The position numbers and the translations under genes are program-made. Shown here piece by piece: positions 643 through 64,000 of a DNA stretch of 64,000 nt (the first letter of the stretch is position 1; each line of letters opens with the position of its first letter). This DNA is from Pararhizobium capsulatum DSM 1112. Its GTDB lineage: Bacteria; Pseudomonadota; Alphaproteobacteria; Rhizobiales; Rhizobiaceae. Below the pieces are notes generated by a model, which was given only the letters and a program-made list of their open reading frames with translations, searched no databases and had not been told where the DNA came from. The stretch is from the NCBI RefSeq assembly GCF_030814475.1, contig NZ_JAUSVF010000001.1, positions 3,540,001 through 3,604,000 on the forward strand, given 5' to 3'.

Positions 643-667
643 GGAACCATCGGGTTACTCGGCCGTT
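643..667 (+). promoter_or_regulatory. EcfG-type general stress promoter of the PRC-barrel gene
   Basis: GGAAC at 643-647 and CGTT at 664-667 are separated by exactly 16 nt. This is the consensus of the alphaproteobacterial EcfG sigma factor, which is itself encoded at 59249-59815. The expected start site is about 30 nt upstream of the ATG at 703. Confidence 0.85.
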
Positions 668-8558: not shown

Positions 8559-8623
8559 GACTCTTTTGTTTCCGTTTGTCTTTTCGGGAAAACCGGTTTC
8601 CACTTTTCCCTGACAAACTCTAA
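8552..8623 (+). repeat. 72-bp dispersed intergenic repeat, copy A
   Basis: These 72 bases match 62141-62212 in the same orientation with only three mismatches. The core contains GGGAAAACCGGTTTCC and ends in TGACAAACTCTAA. The sequence resembles mosaic intergenic elements widely dispersed in rhizobia and agrobacteria. Its last bases contain the stop codon of the adjacent EamA gene (8620-8622). Confidence 0.9.
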
Positions 8624-35266: not shown

Positions 35267-36031
35267 TTAAATGACCGCGGCTTCCTTGCGCACGAAGCCC
35301 TTGCTCGCCACCATCAGGTTTTGCGTATAGGGCTCGGTGATGCGGCCCGCCACAAGATCCGGCGCAGTCAGGCGTTCGACGACCCGGCCGTTTTTCATCA
35401 CCGCCAGACGCTCGCACATATGGGTGACGACGCCGAGGTCGTGGCTGACCATGATGAAGGTGAGCTTGCGGTCGCGGCGGATCTGTTCGAGCAGGTTCAG
35501 CACCTCTGCCTGCACGGACGCATCGAGCGCCGAGGTCGGCTCGTCGAGCAGCAGGATCGAGGGCTCGACGATCAGGGCTCGGGCAATCGCGATGCGCTGA
35601 CGCTGGCCGCCGGACAACTGGTGGGCGTAGCGAAAGCGGAAGCTCGGGCCGAGACCAACCTCATCCAGCGCCCGGACAATGCGATTTTCCGCATCCGGAA
35701 CGCCGTGGATGGCGAGCGGTTCCTGCAACAGGCGGTCGATCGTCTGGCGTGGATGCAGGGAGCCGTAGGGGTCCTGGAAGACCATCTGGACCTGACGGTA
35801 GAACGCTTTGTCGCGTTTACGGCGCGGCAGCGACTTTCCGTCGATGCCGATCTGACCATCTGTGACCGGCGCAAGGCCGGCAATGGCGCGCAGGAGAGTC
35901 GATTTACCCGAGCCGGATTCGCCGACGAGGCCGTAGGATTCGCCCGGCTCGACGTTGATCGAAACCTCGTTCAGCGCCAGAAAATCCTCGTAGGTGACGG
36001 TGAGGTTTTCGACCGAGATCGCTGAGGTCAT
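35267..36031 (-). CDS. Peptide-type ABC transporter ATP-binding protein (DppF-like)
   Basis: This 254-residue ATPase of the dipeptide/oligopeptide importer family has Walker A GESGSGKST, the QMVFQDPYGSLHPRQT segment diagnostic of DppF/OppF, signature LSGGQRQRIAIARA and Walker B ILLLDEPTSALD. Its ATG at 36031 overlaps the stop of the upstream ATPase gene (ATGA). It is last in an operon of substrate-binding protein, two permeases and two ATPases. The usual C-terminal C-rich OppF extension is absent. Confidence 0.92.
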   Translation of the reverse strand: MTSAISVENLTVTYEDFLALNEVSINVEPGESYGLVGESGSGKSTLLRAIAGLAPVTDGQIGIDGKSLPRRKRDKAFYRQVQMVFQDPYGSLHPRQTIDRLLQEPLAIHGVPDAENRIVRALDEVGLGPSFRFRYAHQLSGGQRQRIAIARALIVEPSILLLDEPTSALDASVQAEVLNLLEQIRRDRKLTFIMVSHDLGVVTHMCERLAVMKNGRVVERLTAPDLVAGRITEPYTQNLMVASKGFVRKEAAVI

Positions 36032-56455: not shown

Positions 56456-56480
56456 GGAACAAAACCCCTTTCGAGACGTT
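56456..56480 (+). promoter_or_regulatory. EcfG-type general stress promoter of the DUF883-like gene
   Basis: GGAAC (56456-56460) and CGTT (56477-56480) are separated by exactly 16 nt. The predicted start site is about 60 nt before the ATG at 56547, just after the end of hmuV. Confidence 0.85.
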
Positions 56481-56546: not shown

Positions 56547-56903
56547 ATGGCCACTGGCCTGTTTTCAAGTTCCGCCAAGAAGCGCAACGGCGCCTTCCTC
56601 AATTCCGTCGATGACCAGCTGAGTGAAATCCGCGACGATATCGCGACGTTGAGCAATCTTTTATCGAAACGCGGCGCACAGGCATCCAAGGATGTCCGCA
56701 CGAAAGCCGGCGATATTCGCGGCCATGCGGAAACCGGCCTTGACGACCTGCGCGAACAGGGCGAGCTGCTTCTCTCCGAACTCCGCGACCGCTATGCCGT
56801 GGCAGAGCGTCAGGTTCGACAGGGCGTTCGCGAGCATCCTGTTGCGACGATCGGGGCAGCCGCAGCCGTCGGCGTTCTTCTTGCCATCATGCTTCGTCGC
56901 TGA
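56547..56903 (+). CDS. DUF883/ElaB-like membrane-anchored protein
   Basis: This 118-residue protein has a long helical, charged middle (residues 20-88, heptad-like, coiled-coil prone) and a single C-terminal membrane helix (HPVATIGAAAAVGVLLAIMLRR). This is the layout of DUF883/ElaB-YqjD proteins, which in E. coli bind ribosomes at the membrane in stationary phase. AAAGGAG precedes the ATG. An exact EcfG promoter upstream makes it a probable member of the general stress regulon. Confidence 0.85.
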   Translation: MATGLFSSSAKKRNGAFLNSVDDQLSEIRDDIATLSNLLSKRGAQASKDVRTKAGDIRGHAETGLDDLREQGELLLSELRDRYAVAERQVRQGVREHPVATIGAAAAVGVLLAIMLRR

Positions 56904-57549: not shown

Positions 57550-59052
57550 CTAAAGCGGCAGGCGCACCAGCGCAGTGACGCCTGCCGGCAGGTATTGGAC
57601 TTCAACAGAGCTTCCCATCACCTTGTCCAGGCTGCGTTCGATCAGGATCGAACCGAAACCCTTGCGATCAGGTTCGGCCACCGGCGGCCCACCGACTTCC
57701 GTCCATATCATACGCAGCACCTGCATGCCGTCTTCATCGACCTTGCGGGCGGTAATAATGACCGTGCCCTCAGCGCGCGTCAGCGCCCCATATTTCGCGG
57801 CGTTGGTCGCCAATTCGTGTAATACCAGCCCCAGCCCGACAGCCTGATCGGGGCCAAGCAGTATCTCGTCCTTGTGGATCTCGACCTGACGATCGTAATC
57901 GCGAACGTGGGGCGCAAGCTGCTTGTGTAGAAGCGCCGAGAGCCGGATGGCGCCCCATTCATGATCCGACAACAATCCGTGGGCCTCGGAAATCGCCTGC
58001 AGGCGACCGGCAAATGCGGTCATGAATTGCTTTGGGTCGCTGGTGGTGCGCAGTGTCTGGCGGGCGAGCGACTGAAGCATGGCCAGCGTGTTCTTCACCC
58101 GGTGATTGAGTTCCCTCAGGAGAAGCCGGGTTCGCTGGTTGGAAGTCTGTTCCTCGGTGACATCGACATTGATGCCGAGGAATACGCTCGGCCGGCCGGC
58201 AGAATCCCGTTCATGCACCCGGCCCCGGCCCAAAAGCCACCGCCCGCCCTTGGTGACCCGAAACAGCCCATCATATTCCTCGCCATTGGCCATTGCCGTG
58301 CGAAGCCTTGAAAGTGCTGCCAGCCTGTCATCGGGATGGATAGCCGCGAAAATATCCTTTGCCTGAATGGTAACCGAAGGCTCCATGCCGAACATCCGTG
58401 TCATGGCGTGGTTGCATGACACTTCACCCGTTCGAATATTCCACAGCCAGCTCCCGATATTGGCCGCATCCAGCGCCATTTCGTGACGCTGCTCTTCGCG
58501 GGATATCTCCGCTTCCTTGAGCGCACGCTGGCGGCTCTCGTGCTTCAGACGTAGAAGTGCAGAAGCCATTTCGGACAATCGGTGCAACTGAGTGAGCCAG
58601 GTCGGATCGACCTGTTCGCGGGGCTGGACATCGAAGACGCAGACCGTGCCGACAGCCTGGCCCTCGATAAGGATAGGCACGCCCGCGTAAAAACGAAGAA
58701 ATGGCTCCGCCGCTACAAAGGGTTGCGACATGAACCGAGGGTCTTTCGTGGCATCGAGCACCACGAGTTCTCCGCGCTCCGCCTCGTCGATCACATGAGC
58801 GCAAAAGGACGATCGCGCCGGAGCGCTGGTCTGATCGACGCCAACAGCCGACTTGAACCATTGATCACGAATGTCCAGCAGCGTCACGAGAGCGACGGGT
58901 GCCTGAAAAACTGTTGCAGCCATGGCTGTCAACGCATCGAAATCAGAATCCGGCTCGGTCATGTCGGGGACGAAATTTCGCAAAGCTTCCAGCCGTGGAA
59001 GCGAAGCGAGAGCGGGGTAATCCTCCGCCGGCAATATCGTCGACTCCGTCAT
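57550..59052 (-). CDS. HWE-family sensor histidine kinase (GAF-PAS-HWE)
   Basis: This 500-residue kinase has a GAF domain (about residues 35-170), a PAS domain (about 190-305, MALDAANIGSWLWNIRTGE onward) and an HWE kinase core. The core has phospho-acceptor His317 (LLRELNHRVKNTLA), an N-box with Asn417 (LHELATNAAKYGAL) and the WTE motif at 450-452. Position next to ecfG-nepR matches the kinase beside rpoE2 in Sinorhizobium (RsiC). It would phosphorylate or dephosphorylate PhyR. There is no transmembrane segment, so it senses a cytoplasmic signal. The ATG at 59052 is chosen over an upstream TTG. Confidence 0.93.
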   Translation of the reverse strand: MTESTILPAEDYPALASLPRLEALRNFVPDMTEPDSDFDALTAMAATVFQAPVALVTLLDIRDQWFKSAVGVDQTSAPARSSFCAHVIDEAERGELVVLDATKDPRFMSQPFVAAEPFLRFYAGVPILIEGQAVGTVCVFDVQPREQVDPTWLTQLHRLSEMASALLRLKHESRQRALKEAEISREEQRHEMALDAANIGSWLWNIRTGEVSCNHAMTRMFGMEPSVTIQAKDIFAAIHPDDRLAALSRLRTAMANGEEYDGLFRVTKGGRWLLGRGRVHERDSAGRPSVFLGINVDVTEEQTSNQRTRLLLRELNHRVKNTLAMLQSLARQTLRTTSDPKQFMTAFAGRLQAISEAHGLLSDHEWGAIRLSALLHKQLAPHVRDYDRQVEIHKDEILLGPDQAVGLGLVLHELATNAAKYGALTRAEGTVIITARKVDEDGMQVLRMIWTEVGGPPVAEPDRKGFGSILIERSLDKVMGSSVEVQYLPAGVTALVRLPL

Positions 59053-59198
59053 CAAAATTTCAAACCCCAAGCCCCGATCCGTTTGCGATCGGGGACCAAT
59101 TTATTCCCACTCAGACATCTTCCCGGACCGGACATCCTGTTCTGCCTTATTGTCACCGATGGCGCAACGCTGCCGGGGAGCAGTTGGCCACAAACACG

Positions 59199-59248: not shown

Positions 59249-59815
59249 TCAGGATACGAACGCGCGTGACGTCATGGGGGCGGACGTCGCATCAGGTCCA
59301 TACTCACCTTCACCGGAAATCTGCAGTATATCCTGAAGACGCTGGCGCGCGCGGTTGACGCGGCTCTTGATCGTGCCAAGCGCGCATCCGCAAATTTCCG
59401 CAGCTTCTTCATAGGAAAACCCGGAAGCGCCGACAAGAATGATGGCTTCCCGCTGATCGGGCGGCAGCATATCGAGCGCCCGCTTGAAGTCCTGCAGGTC
59501 AAGCGATCCGTATTGAGCGGGATGCTGGGCAAGCGACTCGGTGAAGTAACCGTCGCTATCCTGCACCTCACGCCCGCGCTTGCGCATCTGGCTGTAAAGC
59601 TCGTTGCGAAGGATGGTGAATAGCCATGCCTTCATATTGGTGCCCATCTCGAAATGGTCCTGTTTGGCCCAGGCCTTCATGATGGTGTCCTGCACGAGAT
59701 CGTCGGCCCGGTCGTGCCGCCCGATCAAAGACATCGCAAATGCGCGCAGGCTGGGCAAAGCCGCCAGCATTTCCCGTTTGAAACCCGACTCTTCAGCGTT
59801 CACGCGTTCGCTCAT
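59249..59815 (-). CDS. ecfG: General stress response sigma factor EcfG (RpoE2-type)
   Basis: This 188-residue ECF sigma factor has region 2 (LRAFAMSLIGRHDRADDLVQDTIMKAWAKQDHF, with the promoter-melting part following) and region 4 (LPPDQREAIILVGASGFSYEEAAEICGCALGTIKSRVNRAR). It directs RNA polymerase to GGAAC-N16/17-CGTT promoters, several of which are in this window. NepR holds it inactive until phosphorylated PhyR captures NepR. Its ATG overlaps the nepR stop (ATGA), so both proteins are made together. Confidence 0.96.
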   Translation of the reverse strand: MSERVNAEESGFKREMLAALPSLRAFAMSLIGRHDRADDLVQDTIMKAWAKQDHFEMGTNMKAWLFTILRNELYSQMRKRGREVQDSDGYFTESLAQHPAQYGSLDLQDFKRALDMLPPDQREAIILVGASGFSYEEAAEICGCALGTIKSRVNRARQRLQDILQISGEGEYGPDATSAPMTSRAFVS

Positions 59816-60006
59816 TCTGCCACATCCGGAAGGGTTTGCCGCTCAACTGCGTCGAGTTTTTCGAGCAGGTCCAAAAATTTATCTGGAATGGCCTCTTCCT
59901 GTACGGAAATATAGAGCGCGCGCAGCTTGGCTGCAATTTGCGCATTCGGATCTTCTGCGCGCGTAAATTTATCAACCTCGCGCACCGCCCCAACTCTCTC
60001 GATCAT
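59812..60006 (-). CDS. nepR: Anti-sigma factor NepR
   Basis: This 64-residue protein has the NepR core AQIAAKLRALYISVQEEAIPDKFLDLLEKLD, the two helices that bind either EcfG or PhyR. The ATG at 60006 gives the typical NepR length and places a near-consensus EcfG promoter (60067-60043) about 30 nt ahead of the expected transcript start. In-frame ATGs at 60069 and 60108 would add poorly supported residues and lie within or upstream of that promoter. The stop codon overlaps the ecfG start. Confidence 0.9.
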   Translation of the reverse strand: MIERVGAVREVDKFTRAEDPNAQIAAKLRALYISVQEEAIPDKFLDLLEKLDAVERQTLPDVAE

Positions 60007-60042
60007 AAACTCACATAACCTTCGATGTTCATCTGAGCCGGT

Positions 60043-60067
60043 AATGCGCGATGAAAAAATATGTTCC
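60043..60067 (-). promoter_or_regulatory. Near-consensus EcfG promoter of nepR-ecfG
   Basis: On the minus strand, GGAAC (60067-60063) is followed after 16 nt by CATT (60046-60043), one mismatch from CGTT. It points at nepR and would give a leader of about 30 nt, which supports autoregulation of the sigma factor. Confidence 0.6.
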
Positions 60068-60073
60068 ATCGCG

Positions 60074-60098
60074 GGAACCTTTTTTTTTACGGCACGTT
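60074..60098 (+). promoter_or_regulatory. EcfG-type promoter of phyR
   Basis: GGAAC (60074-60078) and CGTT (60095-60098) are spaced by exactly 16 nt. It is back-to-back with the nepR promoter, the two GGAAC boxes being six bases apart. The predicted leader to phyR (60151) is about 45 nt. Confidence 0.9.
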
Positions 60099-60150
60099 TT
60101 GGAGCCATGCTGGCGAACAGAACCCAAGCCAGATTGAGGGAGTATTTTGT

Positions 60151-60945
60151 ATGTCACTTTCTACCCGGATCGCTCCGTTCCTGCCTTACCTGCGCCGTTA
60201 CTCGAGAGCATTGACGGGATCCCAGACCTCCGGTGACGCCTACGTCGCTGCCGTTCTCGAAGCGTTGATCGCGGATGTTTCCATTTTTCCGAATGCGAGC
60301 AATGACAGAGTGGCCCTGTTCCAGCTTTATACGAAGCTGTTCGGTTCATCTTCGGTGATGATCCCCGAACCGGTCTCGCCCTTTGCATGGGAAAAACGCG
60401 CGTCGATCAATCTGGCATCGGTCTCGCCCATGGCACGCCAGGCGTTCCTTCTGGTTTCCGTCGAAGGTTTCCGCACGAGCGAGACGGCAGAAGTCCTGAG
60501 TTCATCGGAAGAAGCCGTCAACAAACTGCTTGAACGCGCGTCGGAAGAAATCTCGCGTCAGGTCGCAACCGACATCATGATCATCGAAGATGAACCCCTG
60601 ATCGCGATCGATATCGAACAGATGGTCGAGAGCCTCGGTCATCGGGTAACCGGAATTGCGCGCACGCGCGACGAGGCTGTTGCCCTGTTCCGGACGACAC
60701 AACCTTCCATGGTTCTCGCAGACATTCAGTTGGCCGATGGCAGCTCCGGCATTGATGCGGTCAACGAAATTCTACAGAGCGCGGCAATCCCGGTGATCTT
60801 CATCACCGCGTTCCCGGAAAGACTGCTGACGGGCGAACGGCCGGAACCCACCTTCCTCGTCACCAAGCCTTTCAACCCGGATATGGTCAAGGCGCTGATA
60901 AGCCAGGCGCTCTTCTTCAACGAGTCGACCAAGGCAGCCGCCTGA
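60151..60945 (+). CDS. phyR: General stress response anti-anti-sigma response regulator PhyR
   Basis: This 264-residue protein has an N-terminal sigma-like domain (residues 1-135, an EcfG mimic that binds NepR) and a C-terminal receiver domain. The receiver has the acidic pair Glu146-Asp147, phospho-acceptor Asp191 (VLADIQLADG), Thr219 and Lys239 in a FATGUY-type FITAFPERLLTG...TKPF arrangement. On phosphorylation it sequesters NepR and frees EcfG. The ATG at 60151 has GAGGGAG 8 nt upstream. It is divergent from nepR-ecfG. Confidence 0.96.
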   Translation: MSLSTRIAPFLPYLRRYSRALTGSQTSGDAYVAAVLEALIADVSIFPNASNDRVALFQLYTKLFGSSSVMIPEPVSPFAWEKRASINLASVSPMARQAFLLVSVEGFRTSETAEVLSSSEEAVNKLLERASEEISRQVATDIMIIEDEPLIAIDIEQMVESLGHRVTGIARTRDEAVALFRTTQPSMVLADIQLADGSSGIDAVNEILQSAAIPVIFITAFPERLLTGERPEPTFLVTKPFNPDMVKALISQALFFNESTKAAA

Positions 60946-61005: not shown

Positions 61006-61032
61006 GACGAAGCGTTGCGACACGACGCAGAA

Positions 61033-62103
61033 ATGGCAGTGACTGCGCCCGCCAGCAAGAGCGACGCATATGATGAAGGGCGACCCGAAGTGGCCATCGA
61101 CGGCAAAACACGCCCTCCAGACGCTAGTGACCTTATCCGAGCGCATCTCACAAAGCTGGTTCTGGAGAAAACTGGCGTTGGTTATCTCTTCCAATCTCCC
61201 GACCTTGAGCTTCTACACGTCGGTCCCCTTCCCCAAGGCCTGTCGACATCCGGAGGAAATGATCCCGATGCGGAGATGTTCGGTGAGGAGCATGGCAAGA
61301 GGCTGATCGAAGCCAAGCGTTTGGCACTCAACGGAAGCGGAGGGCAGTCGCTGGAGCTGGACATCACCAATCCCAGCGGACAGCGCATATACCGCATAGA
61401 CATCGAAAGGATTGAGAGCCACCAAGGTGGTGTCCTGTCGGTCATCACCGACATATCGGAAAGCCATCGCCGAGAACGCGTCCTGCGCACGCTTCTGCGC
61501 GAATTGAGCCACCGCTCGAAAAATTTGCTCGCCATCATTCAAGGCGTCGCCACGCAGACAGCGCGTCAGGCCTTGTCGCTCGACTGTTTCCTCGTGACGT
61601 TTCGAGGACGTATCCAGTCGCTTGCCTCGTCTCAGGATCTGGTAACCGATTCCAGCTGGCGCGGCGTGTTTCTGTTTACGCTCGTCGAAAAGCAGCTTCA
61701 GGGTTATTGGCCAGACCCGGAAATGCCCGCAGCCATTACGGGCATCGACGCGTATCTGTCCCCCAACGCGGCCCTGCATATCGGCCTCGCCTTGCATGAG
61801 CTCGTGGTCAACTCAGCGTCGCACGGCGCGCTTGCCGTCGGGGTCACGTCTCTCACGATCAATTGCTTCGAAACCATCCACGAAGGCGGCAAGGCTGTCG
61901 AGATCAACTGGATCGAGCACCTCCCGCCCTCCATTGTCACGGAGGAAGTGGACGAACGCCCGTTCGGACGCACAGTGCTGGAACGTGTTGTTCCCTCGGC
62001 CGTGGACGGCAAGGCCTATTATCTCACGAGCCCCGATCAGATCGAATACCGACTGATCGTGCCCGCCCGCGAATACGAGATCATCACCCGGCTGGAAGAG
62101 TGA
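61033..62103 (+). CDS. HWE-family histidine kinase-like protein with atypical ATP-binding motifs
   Basis: This 356-residue protein has an N-terminal PAS-like region (about residues 35-145, ending VLSVITDISESHRRERVL) and an HWE/HisKA_2 kinase core. The core has phospho-acceptor His160 (LLRELSHRSKNLLA) and a WIE motif at 293-295. The N-box keeps Asn260 but reads LHELVVNSASHGAL instead of the usual LHELATNAAKYGAL, and the G-box reads PFGRTVLER. It may be a weak kinase, a phosphatase or a decoy partner of PhyR. The terminator upstream implies its own promoter. Start: ATG at 61033. Confidence 0.85.
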   Translation: MAVTAPASKSDAYDEGRPEVAIDGKTRPPDASDLIRAHLTKLVLEKTGVGYLFQSPDLELLHVGPLPQGLSTSGGNDPDAEMFGEEHGKRLIEAKRLALNGSGGQSLELDITNPSGQRIYRIDIERIESHQGGVLSVITDISESHRRERVLRTLLRELSHRSKNLLAIIQGVATQTARQALSLDCFLVTFRGRIQSLASSQDLVTDSSWRGVFLFTLVEKQLQGYWPDPEMPAAITGIDAYLSPNAALHIGLALHELVVNSASHGALAVGVTSLTINCFETIHEGGKAVEINWIEHLPPSIVTEEVDERPFGRTVLERVVPSAVDGKAYYLTSPDQIEYRLIVPAREYEIITRLEE

Positions 62104-62140
62104 GCCGACAAGCATTTCAGGATGATGCTGAAGTGATTGG

Positions 62141-62212
62141 TCCTCTAGATTCTTTTGTTTGCGTTTGTCTTTTCGGGAAAACCGGTTTCCACTTTTCCGT
62201 GACAAACTCTAA
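62141..62212 (+). repeat. 72-bp dispersed intergenic repeat, copy B
   Basis: This is the second copy of the element at 8552-8623, in the same orientation and with three mismatches over 72 bases. It lacks the perfect 18-bp inverted repeat that abuts copy A. It ends exactly at the T-run of the predicted small RNA terminator. Confidence 0.9.
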
Positions 62213-62249
62213 AAAGATAACAGCCAGCGCCGGGGGAAGGCACTGGCTG
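62211..62249 (-). terminator. Rho-independent terminator of the predicted small RNA
   Basis: On the minus strand an 11-bp stem with one G-U pair (62249-62239 with 62231-62221) carries the loop TTCCCCC and is followed by TTATCTTTTT. It has all features of a strong intrinsic terminator and faces away from the FGGY gene. Confidence 0.85.
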
Positions 62250-62341
62250 ATATCGACAACTCACCGAGGGGGCATGTGAGCTGATGCCGGATCTCGTTGG
62301 GGGCGTTCGCATTGGGGGCGATGCGAACCGTATCCGGACAT
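62211..62341 (-). ncRNA. Predicted EcfG-dependent small RNA, GsrN-like
   Basis: An exact EcfG promoter (62372-62348, minus strand) would start a transcript near 62341 that reaches the terminator at 62249-62211, about 130 nt, in DNA without a protein gene. About 12 nt from the 5' end lies a perfect 8-bp hairpin (GTTCGCAT/ATGCGAAC, 62328-62305) whose loop CGCCCCCA is C-rich. A second C-rich stretch, GCCCCCAACG, follows, and the terminator loop is also C-rich. GsrN of Caulobacter is a GSR sigma-factor-dependent RNA with a 5' C-rich loop that pairs with target mRNAs, and relatives are expected near ecfG-phyR loci. No expression data are available here. Confidence 0.75.
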
Positions 62342-62347
62342 CCCGTA

Positions 62348-62372
62348 AACGGCCTTCGAGAAAAAAGGTTCC
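62348..62372 (-). promoter_or_regulatory. EcfG-type promoter of the predicted small RNA
   Basis: On the minus strand GGAAC (62372-62368) and CGTT (62351-62348) are spaced by exactly 16 nt. The next gene in this direction is the antisense strand of the second HWE kinase gene, so a non-coding transcript is the simplest product. Confidence 0.85.
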
Positions 62373-62423
62373 GGAGATTTCAGAAAAATTTTCAATTTTT
62401 TTTGAAGGTGATCGACGCAGGTT

Positions 62424-64000
62424 TCAGAGCGCCTCAAGTTCCGCCCGGTGTCGGTAAAGGCTCAGGAATTTCCTGTAGTCACGATCGTAGGCGTCACGCG
62501 TTGCCGGATCGGGCCGATGCTCCTGGCCACCGGGATACATCGCCTGCCCGGCCCCCGCGAGATCCGGATAAAGCCCGCCAGCCACGGCTGCCACGATCGC
62601 AGTACCAAGCAAAACCGCATCATTGGCATGTGGTATGACCACACGGCATCGTGTGACATCGCAATAGAGTTCCATCAGAAGCGGATTGCGCACATGACCG
62701 CCGGTGACATGAAGCGTATCGAGATCGTAGCCCGCCTCCCGCATCATATCGAGGATGTGGCGGATACCGAGCGCGATGGCAACGCAGGTGCGCCAATAGA
62801 GCCGGCAAAGCGCATCAAACGAGCTGTCGAGCGTCAGTCCACTGATGACGCCAAGAGCATGGGGGTCGGCGAGCGGCGAACGGTTTCCGTGGAAATCCGG
62901 CAACACATGCAGTCGCCCGGCAAAATCAGGTCCATGTTCGGAGCGTAACTCCTGAATACGCAAAACGATGCGAGCGTGAACGTCGGGGGTCGGATCTCCT
63001 CCCGCACTATGGCTGCGGACTACATGATCGAGCAGAGCGCCCGTGGCGGACTGCCCACCTTCGACCAACCACGCCCCTGCAAAGCCGGCTTCGAAATACG
63101 GCCCCCACAAACCAAAACCCGGTTTCATCGTCTGGGAAAAGGCAACAATGCAGCTCGACGTTCCGGCAATCAGCGCCAGTTGCCGCTCCAGCTTGCTGCT
63201 ATCATCAGCAAAACCACCCAACACGCCGATCGCGCCGGCATAGGCATCAATCAGGCCGGTCGCAACGCGGCATTCCTCGTCCAGACCCAGTTCCATCGCG
63301 GCTGCAGCAGTGAGCGTGCCAACGGATTGGCCGACAGGCGTCGTTTCATGGGGCAAGCCGCCACGTTCGAGCAGGTCATCGAGGCCGATTTCGCCAAGAA
63401 AATCGGTGCTCCAACCCTCTTCCTTGTGCGCCAGATAATTCCATTTTGCCGTTAGCGTGCAGCGCGACCGCGCCGGATTGCCCGTTGCCCTCCAGGACAT
63501 GAAATCGGCAAGATCGAAGAAGTAACCCGTCTTTTTCCATTGCACGGGCAAATTCTGCTTCAGCCACATCAGCTTGGGCATTTCCATTTCCGGCGACATG
63601 ACCCGGCCGGTATGGGCCAGAACCGGATGGTTGGTCGCGGTGCAGGCATCCGCTTGCTCCAGCGCGCGATGATCGAGCCAGACGATGGTATCCCACCTGG
63701 GATCACCCTTGCGATTGACGGATAGTGGCGCGCCGTCCCGGTCGCGGACAACCAGGGAGCAGGTCGCATCGAAGCCGATCGCAGCGATCGAAGACGCGGG
63801 AACGTCCGCCTTGGCGCGCGCAGTCTTTACGGCAATGCAGGTCGCCTGCCAGATGTTTTCGGAATCGTGTTCGGCGTGGTTTTCCTCTGGCCGGTTCATC
63901 GCGATCGGATAATCCGCCCGGGCCAGCAGCCTGCCATGCCTGTCAAAAATTCCCGCGCGGGCGCTGCCGGTCCCGACATCGACAGCAACGAGCAGATCGC
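62424..64000 (-). CDS. FGGY-family carbohydrate kinase, D-ribulokinase-like (5' end outside window)
   Basis: About 525 residues are visible; only a few N-terminal codons lie beyond the right edge. The first phosphate-binding motif LLVAVDVGTGSARAGIFD is at the edge, followed by GFDATCSLV, WLDHRA, the LIAGTSSC element and the C-terminal ATP site (VTGGHVRNPLLMELYCDV). GFDATCSLV and the overall length fit the FGGY pentulose kinase group (ribulose or ribitol catabolism). It phosphorylates a ketopentose with ATP. Flanking pentitol genes would be to the right, outside the window. Confidence 0.88.
   Translation of the reverse strand, partial: DLLVAVDVGTGSARAGIFDRHGRLLARADYPIAMNRPEENHAEHDSENIWQATCIAVKTARAKADVPASSIAAIGFDATCSLVVRDRDGAPLSVNRKGDPRWDTIVWLDHRALEQADACTATNHPVLAHTGRVMSPEMEMPKLMWLKQNLPVQWKKTGYFFDLADFMSWRATGNPARSRCTLTAKWNYLAHKEEGWSTDFLGEIGLDDLLERGGLPHETTPVGQSVGTLTAAAAMELGLDEECRVATGLIDAYAGAIGVLGGFADDSSKLERQLALIAGTSSCIVAFSQTMKPGFGLWGPYFEAGFAGAWLVEGGQSATGALLDHVVRSHSAGGDPTPDVHARIVLRIQELRSEHGPDFAGRLHVLPDFHGNRSPLADPHALGVISGLTLDSSFDALCRLYWRTCVAIALGIRHILDMMREAGYDLDTLHVTGGHVRNPLLMELYCDVTRCRVVIPHANDAVLLGTAIVAAVAGGLYPDLAGAGQAMYPGGQEHRPDPATRDAYDRDYRKFLSLYRHRAELEAL

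Follow-up and report, generated by a model that had tools for sequence, protein, structure and literature searches.

The window analyzed here, a 64-kb stretch of the 6.48-Mb Pararhizobium capsulatum DSM 1112 genome (C1:3540001-3604000), very probably contains a real, unannotated regulatory RNA that is conserved in related rhizobia. The gene lies beside the general stress response (GSR) locus, and its product is likely a trans-acting, EcfG-dependent small RNA (sRNA) of ~130 nt from the Rhizobiaceae group of ReC64 and the predicted GsrN homologues; its C-rich loops probably base-pair with G-rich leaders of mRNAs. Support comes from its promoter motif, a structure with covariation, its conservation, and its position.

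Results

Genomic context and promoter

The sRNA unit is housed on the minus strand in the gap between the stop codons of an HWE histidine kinase gene (62103) and an FGGY carbohydrate kinase gene (62424) (Table 1). The preliminary description had seen no protein gene in this stretch, and a Pfam search of three ORFs overlapping the region (62297-62638 and 61863-62279 on the plus strand, 61813-62205 on the minus strand) likewise returned no family. Its estimate of 1.2 kb to phyR also holds, phyR ending 1.27 kb away. The FGGY gene is encoded on the same strand as the sRNA and ends shortly upstream of the sRNA promoter. The placement of the HWE kinase gene gives a layout like phyR-tcrY of Rhizobium etli. 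The runner-up ECF sigma factor in the genome is 38% identical to the ecfG product. On the far side of ecfG, a GAF-PAS-HWE histidine kinase is encoded at 57550-59070 (minus strand), framing the GSR core between two HWE kinases.

Table 1. Positions in the window of the GSR genes and of the predicted sRNA gene with its elements.
Feature	Position	Strand	Basis or remark
ecfG	59249..59815	-	only close EcfG found in genome
nepR	59812..60108	-	PF18557
phyR	60151..60945	+	PhyR_sigma2, PhyR_sigma-like, Response_reg
HWE histidine kinase gene	61015..62103	+	Pfam PF07536; convergent to sRNA
Predicted small RNA gene, ~130 nt	62211..62342	-	fold, covariation, conservation
Intrinsic terminator	62211..62249	-	11-bp stem, loop TTCCCCC, tail TTATCTTTTT
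Hairpin SL2	62258..62282	-	loop ATGCCCCCTCG
Outer stem closing 5′ domain	62287..62337	-	CCGGAT 62337-62332 pairs with ATCCGG 62292-62287
Linker C-rich segment CGCCCCCAA	62297..62305	-	not conserved
Hairpin SL1	62305..62328	-	GTTCGCAT-CGCCCCCA-ATGCGAAC, loop CGCCCCCA
EcfG promoter GGAAC-N16-CGTT	62348..62372	-	exact motif
FGGY carbohydrate kinase gene	62424..63998	-	PF00370, PF02782; runs off window

An exact EcfG promoter, GGAAC-N16-CGTT, had been proposed for the RNA and is indeed read at 62372-62348 (GGAAC at 62372-62368, CGTT at 62351-62348). The exact motif occurs five times in the window against 0.55 expected, a count reached by none of 100 shuffles. One copy, at 60074-60098 (plus strand), precedes phyR, and a variant with CATT as its -10 element, at 60043-60067 (minus strand), precedes nepR-ecfG; the true start of nepR is probably downstream of this promoter. 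Further EcfG-like promoters are found at 643-667 (plus), 56456-56480 (plus), and 35699-35723 (minus). The ORF assigned to the promoter at 643 (595-1104) presumably encodes a PRC-barrel-like protein, and that after the promoter at 56456 (56547-56903) presumably encodes an ElaB/YqjD-like protein. From the promoter position, the 5′ end of the sRNA is predicted near 62342-62341, and from the T tract its 3′ end.

A search of the whole window with Rfam 15 matched only tRNA. Restricted to 62100-62430 at E up to 10, it gave six matches, all far below the gathering cut-off, the best two of which (BASRCI408 and BASRCI27) fall in flanking DNA (62100-62219); eight homologous loci likewise matched no family. 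The window contains exactly two copies of a 22-base element, GGGAAAACCGGTTTCCACTTTT (shuffles gave 0). One is at 8586-8607; the other, within 62153-62220, lies just downstream of the sRNA terminator and is overlapped by these weak matches to the Brucella RNAs BASRCI27 and BASRCI408. Because of its two copies and the overlapping matches, this element may be a rhizobial repeat.

Predicted structure and covariation

The transcript has a predicted folding energy of -57.6 kcal/mol, compared with -37.65 kcal/mol for dinucleotide shuffles, none of 200 of which was equally stable; the fold z-scores of the gene were -5.09 (for this comparison) and -6.33. An outer stem encloses SL1 and is followed by SL2 and then by the terminator hairpin, giving three hairpins with C-rich loops. 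The SL1 loop is unpaired in the predicted fold.

Much of this architecture had been anticipated. The 5′ hairpin with a C-rich loop of the preliminary description is SL1, and its 11-bp terminator with a T-rich tail is the stem at 62249-62221, 8 of whose 11 pairs are G-C. The outer stem, SL2, and the C-rich terminator loop were absent from that account, which instead listed a second C-rich segment. Such a segment is present, in the linker between SL1 and the 3′ strand of the outer stem, but it is not conserved, with four or more consecutive C in only 25 of 58 homologues. The conserved second C-rich loop is that of SL2, which is as conserved as the 5′ loop.

An alignment of the 58 homologues (described below) was examined for compensatory changes. 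In this alignment, whose pair counts favor structure because it was fitted to the model and its sequences are related, 96.9% of cells are paired and 21 of 31 pairs show changes on both sides. Its covariation score is 0.309; shuffles gave 0.125, none of 500 scoring as high, and slid partners gave at most 0.060. A plain MAFFT alignment of 28 sequences contains both-side changes in 7 of the 31 pairs. Distributed over the helices of the larger alignment, such changes affect all four modeled pairs of the outer stem (helix 1), five of seven in SL1, seven of eight in SL2 (helix 3), and four of 11 in the terminator (helix 5). The other seven terminator pairs are invariant, and 99.8% of the terminator cells are paired among 57 distinct sequences. 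Divergent members, namely locus L028 and the Sinorhizobium meliloti copy, adopt the same predicted fold when folded alone.

Runs of at least four C are found in the SL2 loop of all 58 homologues, in the SL1 loop of 54 (with at least three C in 58 of 58), and in the terminator loop of 38. The SL2 loop of some genera is CCCCCUCC, which is complementary to the Shine–Dalgarno-like sequence GGAGG. The stems vary under a constant C-rich loop, as would be expected if function resides in the loops.

Conservation across Rhizobiaceae

Using the sRNA unit with its promoter as a blastn query, we found one copy per genome in 28 of 61 genomes, comprising all 26 searched from the genus (P. capsulatum included) and two others of the family. 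The loops and terminator are nearly invariant in the alignments, and the linker and flanks vary. Of 297 family genomes, 40 gave a match at E ≤ 1e-3 with a covariance model (R1) built from these 28 sequences of three genera. In 38 of the 40, which include ten further genera, the match is at the GSR locus; the count leaves out G086, whose match was rejected, and G201. The resulting homologue set comprises 58 sequences from 13 genera, plus two named Sinorhizobium copies. A second model (R2), built from the 58, matched 54 of the 297 genomes at the same threshold, and above 60 bits it recovered exactly the 38 genomes of R1, which is not independent confirmation, since 37 of the 38 were used in building R2.

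The neighboring gene is phyR, the HWE kinase gene, or the FGGY gene in 58 of 58 loci and in both Sinorhizobium loci. phyR is seen in 59 of the 60, always on the strand opposite the sRNA, and in L014 it is outside the fetched stretch. All 30 loci retrieved with 8 kb of sequence contain ecfG; the genus loci of 3-4 kb are too short to show it. Every one of the 58 loci has an EcfG-like promoter, with GGAAC properly placed within 70 nt upstream of the modeled 5′ end. The promoters are of the types N16-CGTT (37), N16-TGTT (10), N16-CATT (9, with L027 among them), N16-AGTT (1), and N17-CGTT (1, L028). Because the blastn query contained the promoter, its conservation in the 28 loci found by blastn depends on their retrieval. 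Both R1 and R2 lack the promoter, and its presence in the 30 loci found by R1 is therefore independent evidence.

Among named species, S. meliloti Ak57 (CP090106.1, L210:5960-6094) carries an unannotated homologue between rsiB1 (PhyR) and the FGGY kinase gene that scores 110.5 bits with R2; the homologue of Sinorhizobium sp. K101 scores 110.1 bits. The Ak57 copy has the same SL1 loop as P. capsulatum, CGCCCCCA, but its -10 element is CATT, and no kinase gene separates rsiB1 from the RNA. A Shinella locus fetched in the same way gave no R2 match. A DNA pattern of the two loops occurs in 28 stretches of named genomes, 26 of them rhizobial and two in other metagenome-assembled genomes; we take the latter two as chance since R1 finds nothing in either. 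Plasmid and phage collections contained no DNA match to the RNA.

In ten of the loci, from four genera (L078-L085, L096, and L097), the phyR on the sRNA side is 53-56% identical to that of the window, and the second phyR (examined in one genome each) is 69-72% identical. By this comparison, the PhyR of the sRNA locus is strongly diverged in those genera.

Weak matches and the second GSR locus

Several low-scoring matches were set aside. A second R1 match in the P. capsulatum genome (C1:4179502, 28.9 bits) was rejected, as it seems on reading to be transporter coding sequence; it is L086, one of five alike low-scoring stretches (with L095, from the rejected G086 match, L102, L104, and L105). 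R2 matches in three family genomes (G259, G197, and G278; L178-L180, 32.9-37.8 bits) were left uncounted, none of six window proteins being found in ~10 kb. Two of these, L178 and L179, at 37.8 and 33.8 bits, come from two species of one genus (g88) and lie away from GSR-locus proteins in the fetched DNA. An R2 scan of the class matched six of 385 genomes at E ≤ 1e-3, P. capsulatum included. The best other genome (G670, from outside the order) scored 38.1 bits at a 3.1-kb locus, L136, that lacks all six GSR-locus proteins as well as any EcfG-like motif. The matches at L178, L179, and L136 are either chance C-rich hairpins or other RNAs. A gsrN-like loop pattern was found in nine of 289 genomes, compared with five in the reversed control.

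In another family of the order, R1 weakly matched L099:4012-4134 (30.9 bits) and L100:4073-4198 (29.3 bits). Their loops are C-rich (GUGCCCCCCGUC, UUCCCUCCC, and UCCCCCC), but immediately upstream there is no exact copy of the EcfG motif, and all six window proteins are missing within 8 kb. The two matches possibly represent a different sRNA with C-rich loops.

P. capsulatum has a second PhyR (71% identical, C1:1430357) and a second NepR (C1:1431407). Their locus (L141, C1:1425000-1437000) has neither ecfG nor the sRNA, and the genome has one close EcfG. S. meliloti has corresponding pairs for two loci, RsiA1/RsiB1 and RsiA2/RsiB2, as reported in the available part of PMC3616915. In 13 such second-phyR loci (L141-L153), the EcfG query matches PhyR alone, NepR was detected in nine, and R2 gave nothing above 14.0 bits. 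Thus, as judged from these loci, which have neither EcfG nor an R2 match, the sRNA goes with the ecfG-bearing locus, not with the second phyR locus. In five of these loci (L141, L146, L149, L150, and L153), a loose scan yielded an EcfG-like motif together with a terminator-like match, one per locus; these candidates, chosen by eye, have a single C-run each and were judged to be of another kind.

Among 24 further phyR loci (L154-L177), R2 gave weak but well-placed matches in four: L165 (41.7 bits), L157 (26.2 bits), L158 (25.4 bits), and L173 (25.0 bits). All four lie next to phyR or the gene for its kinase and coincide with an EcfG-like promoter (with GATT as the -10 element in L173) and C-rich hairpins; L170 and L175 look similar by eye and were unmatched by R2. 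This suggests that the RNA may be spread more widely, with little sequence similarity.

Discussion

Relation to ReC64 and GsrN

The idea of a GsrN-like sRNA beside the GSR locus, with which the preliminary description began, is borne out by the GSR neighbors and EcfG-like promoters of all 58 loci, and the portions of the literature available to us agree with it. ReC64 of R. etli is reported as an intergenic RNA downstream of phyR-tcrY, with an EcfG1 promoter and a start site mapped by 5′ RACE; its reporter expression is abolished in an ecfG1 mutant and activated by EcfG in Escherichia coli (Jans 2013, PMC3892343). It was detected by Northern blot in stationary phase (Vercruysse 2010, PMC2881028) and is up under saline shock, although the 2014 heat and salt study reporting this assigned it SigA/RpoH-type promoters (PMC4167512). 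ReC64 and the P. capsulatum RNA share an intergenic position at the ecfG1/ecfG locus and a promoter of the EcfG consensus type, a likeness of position and promoter. They differ in reported size, ReC64 being given as 88 nt with an unexplained longer band, compared with the ~130 nt predicted here.

GsrN is established in Caulobacter (Tien 2018, PMC5869019). According to the parts of that paper available, its C-rich 5′ loop pairs with the katG leader, as shown by compensatory mutants, and raises KatG; endonucleolytic processing yields a stable 5′ isoform, and Hfq stabilizes the full-length RNA. The P. capsulatum RNA resembles it in having a GSR-sigma promoter, a short length (~100 nt for GsrN), a C-rich 5′ loop, and an intrinsic terminator, and differs in location: in C. 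crescentus, gsrN and the GSR locus are separate. Published BLASTn matches to GsrN stop at the Caulobacteraceae; homologues were predicted at the GSR locus of R. etli, S. meliloti, Agrobacterium radiobacter, and Brucella abortus, among others (PMC5869019, Figure 9). The predicted Rhizobiaceae homologues share with the P. capsulatum RNA an EcfG site, the GSR locus, and an exposed C-rich 5′ loop; the species listed in the available parts of the paper do not include Pararhizobium.

For S. meliloti, rpoE2-dependent transcription is reported in eight intergenic sRNA regions (Schluter 2013, PMC3616915), and the main text of another sRNA paper, in the part available, makes no mention of SMc01503-SMc01507 (PMC2573895). 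A full-text literature search for GsrN returned no rhizobial title among the matches listed, most of which were unrelated. Given the ReC64 work and the predictions of Tien 2018, the P. capsulatum RNA belongs to a kind already known, and in the literature searched, as far as accessible, we found no publication that describes this copy or a family model. Relative to Tien 2018, the covariance model, the second conserved C-rich hairpin, and the distribution over 13 genera are new.

Proposed function and alternative readings

Under stress, by an established pathway, PhyR takes NepR off EcfG. The freed EcfG would transcribe the RNA from ~62342 leftward, with transcription stopping at the terminator. 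The RNA would then expose C-rich sequence in the SL1 and SL2 loops, and also in the terminator loop. By analogy with the 5′ loop of Caulobacter GsrN and katG, the SL1 and SL2 loops would most likely pair with G-rich stretches of mRNA leaders, in some cases close to a ribosome-binding site, thereby altering the translation or stability of stress mRNAs. It is from the sequence that we infer transcription in this strain, dependence on EcfG, action in trans, the pairing mode, and any target.

The leader of the P. capsulatum katG contains one G4 tract, CAACGGGGCC (CGGGGCC), of which GGGGC alone matches the SL1 loop, amounting to five G-C pairs. In a crude scan of one genome with one 10-mer, a perfect 10-nt complement to the SL1 loop turned up at 12 sites, one of them the gene itself, compared with four for the reversed control. 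None of the other 11 sites in this genome is clearly in a 5′ leader, and the scan gave no convincing mRNA target; one site lies 39 nt inside the plausible start codon of a transporter-like ORF. The lack of a convincing target would also suit an EcfG-driven RNA whose C-rich loops mainly bind a protein, or sponge another RNA, rather than pair with mRNA leaders, and C-runs in up to three loops per molecule are as in a multivalent binding platform. We consider this unlikely, as GsrN, the best studied RNA of the kind, acts by loop–mRNA pairing according to the compensatory mutants reported in the accessible account, and the scan is too crude to count heavily.

Two other readings deny that there is a free sRNA. 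The region could be the 3′ UTR of the FGGY transcript, given that the FGGY gene is codirectional and ends ~50 bp upstream of the promoter, and that 84 bp separate the model match from the FGGY match in this genome. We regard this as very improbable: the element has its own EcfG-like promoter in 58 of 58 loci, the R. etli counterpart is reported to have an independent start site, and the RNA persists in seven loci of two genera (L072-L077 and L094) in which FGGY was not found within 8 kb. Hardly any more room is left for a DNA-level or fortuitous element, that is, a terminator combined with a promoter that serves something else, a reading that we give the least credence. Taken singly, the terminator and CGCCCCCAA are not unusual by count: 61500-63000 contains one terminator-like site against a shuffle mean of 1.7, which alone is not significant, and CGCCCCCAA occurs twice in the window, a number reached by 30 of 100 shuffles. 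Both-side pair changes in every helix, the stable folds of divergent members, and the EcfG-like promoter closely upstream of the modeled 5′ end in all 58 loci speak against it.

The trans-acting sRNA that we favor might be part of something larger. More tentatively, and with doubts that outweigh our confidence, we suggest that the ecfG-bearing GSR module has as its RNA output a Rhizobiaceae-wide RNA family outside Rfam; that this RNA is multivalent, addressing two target sets through two or more independent C-rich seed loops (SL1 and SL2); and that the terminator stem sequence is kept for a function beyond termination.

Significance

Much of the peroxide survival of Caulobacter is due to GsrN. 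Outside the Caulobacteraceae, the GsrN idea has rested until now on position, promoter, transcription data, and predicted folds. Covariation, promoter conservation, and a named Sinorhizobium copy make the Rhizobiaceae version a defined RNA family with a searchable model, and they single out the SL1 and SL2 loops as targets for mutation in tractable rhizobia, for example S. meliloti or R. etli.
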